Assembly: GCF_937951745.1 (NCBI RefSeq)
Contig: NZ_CALFBQ010000018.1
Location: forward strand, 1 to 64,000
Source: an uncultured Chloroflexus sp.
Lineage (GTDB): Bacteria > Chloroflexota > Chloroflexia > Chloroflexales > Chloroflexaceae
Reading direction: 5' to 3'
DNA length: 64,000 nt
Under the pieces are notes generated by a model. It had not been told where the DNA came from. It saw nothing but the letters and a program-made list of their open reading frames with translations, and searched no databases. Made by a program: the position numbers and the translations under genes. Below, piece by piece: positions 51,944-55,251 of this stretch. Positions within the stretch are counted from its first letter, which is position 1. Each line of letters begins with the position of its first letter.

Positions 51944-52735
51944 ATGGCCCGCCAACGTCTCGATACGCTGCTAGTCGAGCTTGGTCTGGCAGAGACGCGC
52001 GCGCGGGCGCAGGCGCTGATCATGGCCGGGCAGGTGCTGGTCAACGGCCACGTGCAGACCAAGGCCGGCACGATGGTACCTCTCGACGCCCAGATTGATG
52101 TGCGTGGCGGCTTGCCCTACGTCAGCCGCGGTGGCTTCAAGCTCGCGCATGCGCTAGATCAGTTTGGGCTTGATCCGGCAGGGTTGACAGCGATCGATGT
52201 TGGCGCTTCCACCGGCGGGTTTACCGACGTATTGTTGCAACGCGGTGCGGCGCGGGTGTTTACGGTTGATGTCGGCTATGGCATTCTCGACCACCGGCTG
52301 CGCACCGATCCACGGGTGGTTGCGCTCGAACGCACCAACATTCGCCACCTCACCGCGCTGCCTGGTGGCGTGCTGGTCGATTGCGCCGTGATCGATGTCA
52401 GCTTCATCTCGCTGCGGCTCGTCTTGCCGGCAGTACAGCGACTCATCACACCAACCGCGTGGATTGTGGCGCTGATTAAGCCGCAGTTTGAAGCCGGACC
52501 GCAACACGTGGGCAAAGGCGGTGTGGTGCGCGATCCGGCGGTGCATGCGCAGGTGATCCACGATATTCTGTCCTTTGCAACGACGCACCAGCTCAACCCT
52601 GCTGGCCTCACCCGCTCGCCGATTACCGGCCCGGCGGGGAACGTCGAATTTCTCGTCCTCTTCCATCCCCAGCGCCCGTCTATCGAACCCCAACGCGCGA
52701 TCATAGCCTGTGTGGAGGGAGGCGGAGCGTCGTAG
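51944..52735 (+). CDS. tlyA: 16S/23S rRNA 2'-O-methyltransferase TlyA
   Basis: 263 residues. N-terminal S4 domain ([20 protein letters not shown]) and an FtsJ-like methyltransferase with the SAM motif [16 protein letters not shown], followed by [22 protein letters not shown] and HPQRP. Methylates cytidine ribose in rRNA. ATG 51944 lies 1 nt after the previous stop and replaces a longer frame with no homology. Confidence 0.92.
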
Positions 52736-52875
52736 CGACACAGCGCCGCTGCATCGCTACCGTATGTCACTACGTTGCCCGTCATCTGCACACCTTTGTT
52801 TACCCAGTTTTTACCCTGAGTGAATGACTTACAACCGGCAAAATCGGGTAAAGATGTTACATTTATTGCATACGT

Positions 52876-52895
52876 TGACATTTCAAACAATGTCA
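52876..52895. promoter_or_regulatory. Palindromic operator candidate in front of bchJ-bchE
   Basis: TGACAT-N8-ATGTCA is a perfect 20-bp inverted repeat 12 nt before the bchJ start. A related half-site, GTTACATTT, lies 21-22 bp upstream (52855-52863) in line with GTTGACATTT. TTGACA at 52875-52880 resembles a -35 but has no -10 at the right distance. This looks like a dimeric-regulator site. Confidence 0.6.
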
Positions 52896-52906
52896 GTGGG
52901 CATAGT

Positions 52907-53518
52907 ATGCAAGATGTAGCACACGTCGCTGAAGTTGCCCGGATCGGGCCAAATTCGATCATCCAGACCATCGCGGCCTTACGCGAGCAGTATGGCGCCG
53001 AGACCACCGCAGCTTGGCTGCGTCGCAGTGGGCGAGGCCATTTCCTTGAAACGATGCCCGACCACATGCTGGCCGAGAGCGAATTTGGCGCGATGATCCG
53101 TGACTTGCGCGACTGGCTAGGGATGCCGGCGGCGATGCGAGTGCTTGACCGTTCGGGCGAACTCACCGCGAACTATGTGGCGACGAACCGGGTACCGGCA
53201 CTAATCAGGCTGCTCTTACCGCGCTTGCCGGTGGGGTTGGCGTTGCGTATCTTTCTTCCAGCCATTGCCAAACATGCGTGGACGTTCGCCGGCAGCGGGC
53301 AATTTGGCTATACGTTACGGCCACAATGGCAGTTGACGCTGGCCAATAGCGTGGAAGCTCGTGGAGTGCAGGCTGCCGAGCCGGTGTGCAGTTACTACCG
53401 GGCGGCGTTTGAAGGCTTGTTGCGACGGGTAGTGAGCGATCGGATCCGTGTGCGCGAGGTGGCATGCCGGGCTATGGGTGCGCCGCGCTGCACGTTTGCC
53501 GTATCACGTGAGGGGTAA
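52907..53518 (+). CDS. bchJ: BchJ-type V4R-domain bacteriochlorophyll protein
   Basis: 203 residues. N-terminal helical part (MQDVAHVAEVARIGPNSI; HFLETMPDHMLAESEFGAM) and a C-terminal 4-vinyl reductase (V4R) domain (about 130-200; ERGVQ-type region ARGVQAAEPVCSYYRAAF, then EVACRAMGAPRCTF with conserved Cys). Formerly called 4-vinyl reductase, BchJ is now seen as an accessory of Mg-protoporphyrin handling. ATG 52907 is chosen because an upstream in-frame GTG at 52820 would put the palindrome inside the gene. It precedes bchE by 77 nt. Confidence 0.88.
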   Translation: MQDVAHVAEVARIGPNSIIQTIAALREQYGAETTAAWLRRSGRGHFLETMPDHMLAESEFGAMIRDLRDWLGMPAAMRVLDRSGELTANYVATNRVPALIRLLLPRLPVGLALRIFLPAIAKHAWTFAGSGQFGYTLRPQWQLTLANSVEARGVQAAEPVCSYYRAAFEGLLRRVVSDRIRVREVACRAMGAPRCTFAVSREG

Positions 53519-53595
53519 TCCGGGGGCGTCGATTTCGTTTGTCTTTGCGTTGTTGTAGTTCAGACTTGGTCGTCAGAAAGGAAGAGAGGCCACGC

Positions 53596-55251
53596 ATGCG
53601 GATCATGATGATCCAGCCGAACTACCATGCCGGTGGGGCTGAAATTGCTGGGAACTGGCCGCCGAGCTGGGTCGCCTACATCGGCGGCGCATTGCGCACC
53701 GCAGGCTTCAACAACCTGCGTTTCGTCGATGCGATGACGGAAGATCTGCCCAATGAGCAATTGCGCCTGATCTTGCGCCATAATCGGCCTGATGTGGTGA
53801 TGGCCACGGCGATCACGCCGATGATCTACAAGGCGCAAGAGACGTTGCAGATCGCGCGTGAAGAAGTGCCGAATGCTCGTCTCATTCTTGGCGGCATTCA
53901 CCCGACCTTCATGTATGGTCAGGTCTTAACCGAGGCGCCATGGATCGACTACATTGTGCGCGGCGAGGGTGAAGAGATTATCGTCGAGCTGATGCAGTCG
54001 ATTGAGGCCGGCACCGACCGGCGCGACCGGGCCAACATCAAGGGGATTGCCTACCTCGAGGACGGCAAGGTGGTGGCGACGCCGGCCCGTGATCCGATCG
54101 CCGATCTCGACAAGCTCACCCCGGATTGGAGCCTCTACGATTGGAAGCGCTATATCTACGTGCCGCTCAATGTGCGGGTGGCCGTGCCCAATTTCGCCCG
54201 CGGCTGCCCCTTCACCTGCCGCTTCTGCTCGCAGTGGAAGTTCTGGCGGCGCTATCGCTCTCGCAGCCCGCAGAAGTTTGTTGATGAGATCGAGACGCTG
54301 GTGCGCGAGCATCAAATTGGCTTCTTCATTCTGGCCGATGAAGAGCCGACCATCAACCGCAAGAAGTTCACCGCGCTCTGCGAAGAGCTGGTACGGCGCA
54401 AACTGCCGGTTTACTGGGGCATTAACACCCGTGTGACCGACATTCTACGTGATGAAGCGCAGTTGCCGCTCTGGCGCGCCGCCGGGTTGGTGCATATCTC
54501 GCTCGGCACCGAGGCTGCTGCTCAGATGAACCTTGACCGCTTCCGCAAGCAGACGACGATCGAGCAGAATAAGCGCGCGATCGAGCTGATTAAGAAGCAC
54601 GGCATGGTGGCCGAGGCCCAGTTCATTATGGGCATGGAGAATGAGACGCCGGAGACGATCGAAGAGACCTATCGCTACGTGCTCGACTGGAAGCCGGATA
54701 TGGCCAACTGGAATATGTACACGCCGTGGCCGTTTGCCGAGCTGTTTGAAGAGCTGGGTGATAAGGTCGAGGTGCGCGACTATGCAAAGTACAACTTCGT
54801 GACGCCGATTATGAAGCCTGAGCTGATGGATCGCGAAGATGTGCTCAAGGGTGTGTTGCGCAACTATGCCCGCTTCTATATGCGCAAGGCCTTCCTTGAG
54901 TACCCGTTTATCAAGGATCCGTTCAAGCGGCGCTACATGCTCGGTTGTTTGCGCGCCTTTATGAAGACCACCGTCACTCGCCGCTTCTATGACCTTGGTC
55001 GCATCCACATGCGTGGTGCCCAGCTCGAGATCGATCTCGGCTTTGACGAGTCGCGCGTGCTGACGCCGGAGCAGATCGCGGCGATGAAGCAGCGCAAAGA
55101 GATGAATGCCGATACCACCTTCGGCGGCGCGGCTCCCGGCATCGATCCCGAAGAGATCAAGATTCAGGCCGAGAATCCGCTCAACTTGCCGTTGGAAGTG
55201 GCGGTGAACGAGAACGCTCATGCGGCGACTCCGGCCAAGCCGGCGTCATAA
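53596..55251 (+). CDS. bchE: Mg-protoporphyrin IX monomethyl ester oxidative cyclase (anaerobic)
   Basis: 551 residues. Radical SAM/B12 enzyme forming ring E of bacteriochlorophyll without O2, with water as the oxygen source. The N-terminal cobalamin-binding domain (1-170; YHAGGAEIAGNWPPSWVAYI, VDAMTED, VRGEGEE) and the radical SAM core with CxxxCxxC at Cys204, Cys208 and Cys211 (RGCPFTCRFCSQWKFW) are intact. ILADEEPTINRKKF and YTPWPFAELF follow the BchE pattern. AGAGG is 7 nt before ATG 53596. Cobalamin dependence gives the cbi- and B12-related genes here a practical link. The C-terminal tail is Ala/Pro-rich. Confidence 0.96.
   Translation: MRIMMIQPNYHAGGAEIAGNWPPSWVAYIGGALRTAGFNNLRFVDAMTEDLPNEQLRLILRHNRPDVVMATAITPMIYKAQETLQIAREEVPNARLILGGIHPTFMYGQVLTEAPWIDYIVRGEGEEIIVELMQSIEAGTDRRDRANIKGIAYLEDGKVVATPARDPIADLDKLTPDWSLYDWKRYIYVPLNVRVAVPNFARGCPFTCRFCSQWKFWRRYRSRSPQKFVDEIETLVREHQIGFFILADEEPTINRKKFTALCEELVRRKLPVYWGINTRVTDILRDEAQLPLWRAAGLVHISLGTEAAAQMNLDRFRKQTTIEQNKRAIELIKKHGMVAEAQFIMGMENETPETIEETYRYVLDWKPDMANWNMYTPWPFAELFEELGDKVEVRDYAKYNFVTPIMKPELMDREDVLKGVLRNYARFYMRKAFLEYPFIKDPFKRRYMLGCLRAFMKTTVTRRFYDLGRIHMRGAQLEIDLGFDESRVLTPEQIAAMKQRKEMNADTTFGGAAPGIDPEEIKIQAENPLNLPLEVAVNENAHAATPAKPAS

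Follow-up and report, generated by a model that had tools for sequence, protein, structure and literature searches.

The bchJ-bchE locus and its palindrome

The window, as we call the whole 64,000-nucleotide stretch of Chloroflexus DNA that was analyzed, carries the genes bchJ and bchE, and a perfect dyad lies in front of them:

52876 to 52895, no strand assigned: dyad TGACATTTCAAACAATGTCA, that is TGACATT-N6-AATGTCA, 11 bp before the bchJ ATG (52907)
52907 to 53518, plus strand: bchJ, matching TIGR02019 (BchJ) with 291.5 bits (cut-off 74.3)
53596 to 55251, plus strand: bchE, anaerobic Mg-protoporphyrin monomethyl ester cyclase, matching TIGR02026 (BchE) with 911.7 bits (cut-off 481.35)

The original prediction had placed a TGACAT-N8-ATGTCA palindrome in front of bchJ-bchE and this is confirmed, the arms being actually 7 bp long and the spacer 6 bp, as against the 6-8-6 form given at that time. 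The palindrome is real but, as a palindrome, unremarkable, because the window contains 41 perfect 6-8-6 dyads, the reported one included, as well as 15 perfect 7-6-7 dyads, and because some dyad with 7-bp arms (spacer 4-12) appears in about 7% of shuffled versions of the 171-bp intergenic region. The 4.25-Mb genome contains the exact word at two places, here and inside a 574-aa ORF, and has no second exact intergenic copy. As a genome-wide motif the palindrome was rejected: when one mismatch is allowed it is found at 8 places, with no obvious pigment gene among the minority of them whose genes were named.

Eight Chloroflexus genomes were compared, among them the window genome (G000), a putative C. 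aurantiacus (G024), and a putative C. aggregans (G041); seven upstream regions were aligned and the eighth (G060, locus L043) was read directly. The left arm and the centre of the dyad (52876-52892, 17 bp) are nearly invariant across the genus, and the three bases of the outer right arm (52893-52895) are kept in 5/8, 6/8, and 4/8 genomes, respectively. The right arm is eroded in four of the eight (G012, G041, G027, and G024), so that the palindrome is not conserved upstream of bchJ in relatives, and the conservation of both arms that would characterize a dyad operator was not found across the genus. The symmetric right arm would rather be an addition in the clade of the window genome. Nor is there support for the palindrome marking a regulon, as had been proposed, since its right arm is not kept and its one-mismatch places do not, as far as seen, lie at photosynthesis genes; inspection by eye of the aligned acsF, csmA, and pufL regions disclosed no copy of the dyad. 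The palindrome is unsuitable as a motif for regulon searches and the dyad itself is probably not the functional unit, a judgment that belongs to the whole explanation preferred below. The view that this is the right place for control holds for the position, given the near invariance of the left 17 bp; oxygen or light as the signal is its presumptive part.

Another repeat lies in the neighborhood. It is an inverted repeat, GTAGCGACACAGCG / CGCTGCATCGCTAC, found at 52732-52760, behind the gene upstream of bchJ, and longer arrays of this repeat (ACACAGCGSCGCTGTGTC), which resemble mobile palindromes of the REP type, are present in that place upstream of bchJ in two relatives (L010 and L011).

A conserved block and the predicted bchJ promoter

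The conservation upstream of bchJ is linear and extends beyond the dyad:

52786 to 52839, plus strand: upstream conserved block TGCACACC TTTGTTTACCC...GACTTACAACCGGC, seen in the alignment, a putative activator region
52850 to 52892, plus strand: conserved linear block AAAGATGTTACATTTATTGCATACGTTGACATTTCAAACAATG (also written AAARATGTTACATTTANNGCATACRTTGACAYYTCARRCAATR), with few changes in 8/8 Chloroflexus genomes
52854 to 52863, plus strand: predicted extended -10 ATGTTACATT (TG-N-TACATT), matching ATGCTACAAT at 8/10 positions, from which the start site is predicted
52857 to 52862, plus strand: TTACAT, the partial half-site of the original prediction, inside the predicted extended -10

The second, partial half-site reported upstream of the dyad is indeed present, at a distance of 19 bp from start to start and not of about 21 bp. 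The core of the linear block, TTACATT-N10-RTTGACA, is matched without mismatch at bchJ in each of the eight genomes and nowhere else, and the block therefore defines no multi-gene motif either; no copy of it was seen by eye upstream of csmA, acsF, or pufL.

All eight Chloroflexus genomes possess ATGTTACATT. The bchM, bchN, and hemN promoters of Chloroflexus contain ATGCTACAAT or ATGCTAAAAT, and the bchM and bchN promoters of other genera contain TGNTATAAT. By our own estimate, an 8/10 match of ATGTTACATT to ATGCTACAAT is expected by chance in about 6% of cases in such a region, which counts against the promoter reading. If ATGTTACATT is taken as an extended -10, bchJ is predicted to start near 52870 with a 37-nt leader containing the palindrome, which because of this predicted start would lie inside the message. 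Positions 52850-52892 would then comprise the bchJ core promoter together with the beginning of its transcript, and the conserved GCATACGTTGACATTTCAAACAATG, which closely follows the extended -10, may form a promoter-proximal control segment.

Other promoter assignments were considered and rejected. When the TTGACA at 52875-52880 is taken by eye as a sigma-70 -35, none of the species shows a -10 lying 16-18 bp away, and a consensus scan yielded no promoter-like site for this reading; ECF or sigma-54 promoters do not fit by their spacing (by eye). The TACAAC at 52830, taken as a -10 in the same architecture, is the best candidate in three genomes, but ATGTTACATT is preferred because it is the best one in two others. 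Six Chloroflexus genomes have in common, upstream of pufL (L083-L088), a strong TTGACA-N17-TATTAT promoter and an upstream block, TTTATAATGCAAAATTAAATAT, both of them conserved.

A 21-bp box before pigment and heme genes

A different element of 21 bp, with the consensus GTAGTTY-NN-A-N-T-NN-G-N-ACTAC, recurs before bacteriochlorophyll and heme genes. It was traced from a conserved TGTAGTTCAGA element in the bchJ-bchE gap across families, followed by a search for GTAGT-N11-ACTAC, and the bchM box reads GTAGTTTTGATTCCGTACTAC. Chloroflexus has two boxes before bchM and one each before a unit made of a small orf, acsF, and bchH, before bchN, and before hemN-hemY. In other genera the box additionally precedes bchJ and pucC-like genes. 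Genomes similar to Roseiflexaceae have it downstream of bchJ, in front of a radical-SAM gene that belongs to the TIGR04053 family and bears a further resemblance to heme b synthase.

Such sites before pigment and heme genes are far above chance. Indeed, the box was found before bchM in 17/30 cases, behind bchM on the acsF/bchH side in 18/30 (at most one mismatch), before bchN in 12/30, and around bchJ in 9/29 and 6/29, against a shuffle background of 0.2-0.7% for these gene-anchored counts. Positions that the search left free are conserved as well among 46 distinct sites (A10 in 44, T12 in 38, and T6 in 35). With the centre included, the box is present in 32 of 33 phototrophic versus 6 of 27 non-phototrophic Chloroflexales genomes (Fisher p = 7e-10), counts that are not independent since the phototrophic ones include many close relatives; a genome was called phototrophic when it had a BchM match above the cut-off (32 genomes), G042 being added with a partial BchM match. 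The phototrophic genomes hold 80 sites (reversed-pattern control 5) and the non-phototrophic ones 6 (control 11). The box's conservation, its specificity for phototrophs, its constant distance from the -10 (see below), and its gene set are counted here as established.

An undescribed regulon had been suspected at this operon and, apparently, a phototroph-specific one exists, but it works through this different motif and not through the palindrome. The bacteriochlorophyll and heme regulon that touches the bchJ-bchE operon in this way is apparently undescribed: no description of the box was found in the open-access literature, a search outside of which lies the Chloroflexi collection of RegPrecise 3.0, with 5 genomes and 30 regulator groups (PMC3840689), that may list it. 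Similarly, the open-access literature yielded no paper naming a regulator for the bacteriochlorophyll genes of Chloroflexota.

Two candidate regulators were unconvincing, namely a MarR-type gene that stands beside the box in one genome only and a conserved protein of 140-190 aa, without Pfam match, encoded beside pucC-like genes. The latter protein (YVRWVVRRHKN...QRTICYLGNIRQIG), of which one copy was tested against Pfam, is encoded near box-bearing pucC-like genes in at least four genera (L191:2117-2542, L193:1915-2391, L187, L192, and L196). Another conserved protein, of about 110 aa with EGEGFVRLQSEHEHFHFHVDLPPGMEIQPGDTLEI in the central part, is encoded ahead of acsF in two families (L114:7736-8071, L119:7154-7486, and L120:5916-6257); it has no NCBIfam or Pfam match and is a possible partner of AcsF.

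Geometry of the box relative to promoters

The box starts 12-14 nt behind an extended -10 resembling TGNTAYAAT in 16/16 bchM regions (promoter-proximal copy) and 12/12 bchN regions. The bchJ dyad, starting 12 nt behind its predicted extended -10, occupies the slot of the bchM and bchN box with a different sequence. The hemN boxes lie farther behind the promoter than 12-14 nt, the bchJ boxes of genus g2 follow the best -10 by 4-7 nt, and no fixed distance to a -10 is kept by the boxes of acsF or by those behind bchJ. The two full boxes of Chloroflexus bchM are about 82 bp apart (80-83; L106:7169-7271 and orthologues), and only the upstream copy adjoins a clear extended -10, a pair that may allow looping or a second promoter.

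Because of the distance of 12-14 nt, a bound dimer would cover about +7 to +28 at bchM and bchN and would block or gate the start of transcription. Repression is, from this position, the more likely direction of control. The box would presumably be read by a DNA-binding protein, and the signal may be oxygen or light. A regulator common to the pigment genes would thus act through the 21-bp box and not through the palindrome. The likely explanation overall, in our judgment, is that 52850-52892 are the bchJ promoter and the start of its message, and that the pigment regulon acts through the separate 21-bp box.

Alternative readings

The RpaB/HLR1 sites of cyanobacteria consist of two TTACA-like direct repeats at a fixed short spacing, and the conserved block of bchJ, which contains TTACA-like repeats, could similarly be composed of direct repeats, GTTACATT-N10-GTTGACATT with GCATAC in between, recognized by a response regulator of the OmpR/PhoB type. 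Its ACATTT repeats are 19 bp apart and both TTACATT and TTGACA are conserved in 8/8 genomes. However, the spacing and the second repeat seem not to fit, the strict pattern TTACA-N5-TTACA being found at one place with two mismatches (TTGCATACGTTGACA, 52866-52880), and the upstream repeat falls on the predicted extended -10, which leaves this reading unlikely.

It is also quite unlikely that the dyad is a true operator in the window clade only (G000, G048, G033, and G060), bound by a dimeric repressor or activator that elsewhere is absent or reads a degenerate site. The perfect 7-bp arms and the nearly invariant left 17 bp agree with this, as does the position 12 nt behind the extended -10 that the dyad shares with the bchM and bchN boxes, but the right arm has decayed in the four other genomes while the rest of the site is nearly fixed, dyads of this kind are common in the window, and the genome offers no further exact intergenic copy.

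We give little credence to the dyad being the inner stem of a leader hairpin that regulates translation, with TTGCATAC and GTATGCAA paired across the bchJ start codon. Such a hairpin has an MFE of -26.3 kcal/mol (z -3.1) in the window genome and folds in G000, G048, and G033, and in G012 with two wobble pairs, but the three most distant species (G041, G027, and G024), whose left strand is unchanged, no longer form it, no pair (0) has compensating changes, and no Rfam family is found at the gathering score or near it. Just as improbable is a leader RNA hairpin in place of a DNA operator at the GTAGT-N11-ACTAC box: the sites are indeed located within predicted leaders, close to the ribosome site, and on the sense strand their left arm is the more conserved one, but the arms are kept as one sequence and not as any pairing sequence, the constant distance is that to the -10, the sites ranging from -61 to -217 with respect to the start codon, and the DNA operator is favored because the inner positions of the box do not covary.

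A half box before bchE

The bchJ-bchE operon of the window has no full box; only the left part of one is found, in the gap between the two genes:

53555 to 53575, plus strand: half-degenerate box GTAGTTCAGACTTGGTCGTCA, 20 bp upstream of the bchE ATG, with 9/9 informative positions in the left part and 1/5 in the right arm

This half box is present in 16/16 bchJ-bchE gaps of the genera g1, g3, g5, g6, and g8, with 8-9 of 9 left positions and 0-1 of 5 right-arm positions, and 9/9 left positions are reached in 0.02% of shuffled gaps. The genera g2 and g20 have a full or nearly full box before bchJ and none in the bchJ-bchE gap. Judged by its sequence, the bchE copy is a conserved half box, at which a dimeric operator may not form because the right arm is absent in all five genera. 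The putative regulator would act on this operon at 53555-53575, so that bchE could be controlled independently of bchJ.

Comparison with known regulators

PpsR/CrtJ of purple bacteria (TGT-N12-ACA) provides a close parallel in that it has an operator at pigment genes, a link to phototrophy, and a plausible control by oxygen or light, and genes of anaerobic tetrapyrrole synthesis, among them hemN and bchE, would fall under FNR/FnrL. However, as correctly stated in the original prediction for the palindrome, neither site is present: the control regions of bchJ and bchE contain no exact TGT-N12-ACA, the box here being GTAGT-N11-ACTAC behind a -10, and no TTGAT-N4-ATCAA within two mismatches. LysR-type regulators bind T-N11-A boxes and a T-N11-A lies inside the dyad of the 21-bp box but, unlike classical LysR activation sites, the box lies behind the predicted transcription start at bchM and bchN; no LysR gene was found linked to the box.

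Diel expression and meaning for pigment control

In hot-spring mats, C. aggregans bchM, acsF, bchN, bchL, bchB, and bchH-III all reach their maximum at midday and bchJ reaches its own at 15:00; under high oxygen and light, bchE declines to 1/32 of its diel mean (PMC8004040). These data agree with the box genes being under common control and bchJ and bchE under separate control, and do not indicate the responsible site. Since bchE varies in C. aggregans and the putative C. aggregans genome lacks the right arm of the palindrome, bchE would be regulated without that arm.

Control of bacteriochlorophyll by oxygen and light is known physiologically in Chloroflexota, an early-branching group of phototrophs. 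On balance, it seems fairly probable that a putative, undescribed regulator peculiar to phototrophic Chloroflexales governs the synthesis of bacteriochlorophyll and the late steps of heme synthesis (bchM, acsF-bchH, bchN, hemN-hemY, pucC-like genes, and bchJ/bchE) through a 21-bp operator fixed behind an extended -10, at least at bchM and bchN, and through a conserved half-operator by which bchE is treated differently from bchJ in switching between the aerobic and the anaerobic cyclase. A defined operator, a named gene set, and a fixed promoter geometry make this regulator directly findable, and the box offers one testable route to the opposite oxygen responses of acsF and bchE.
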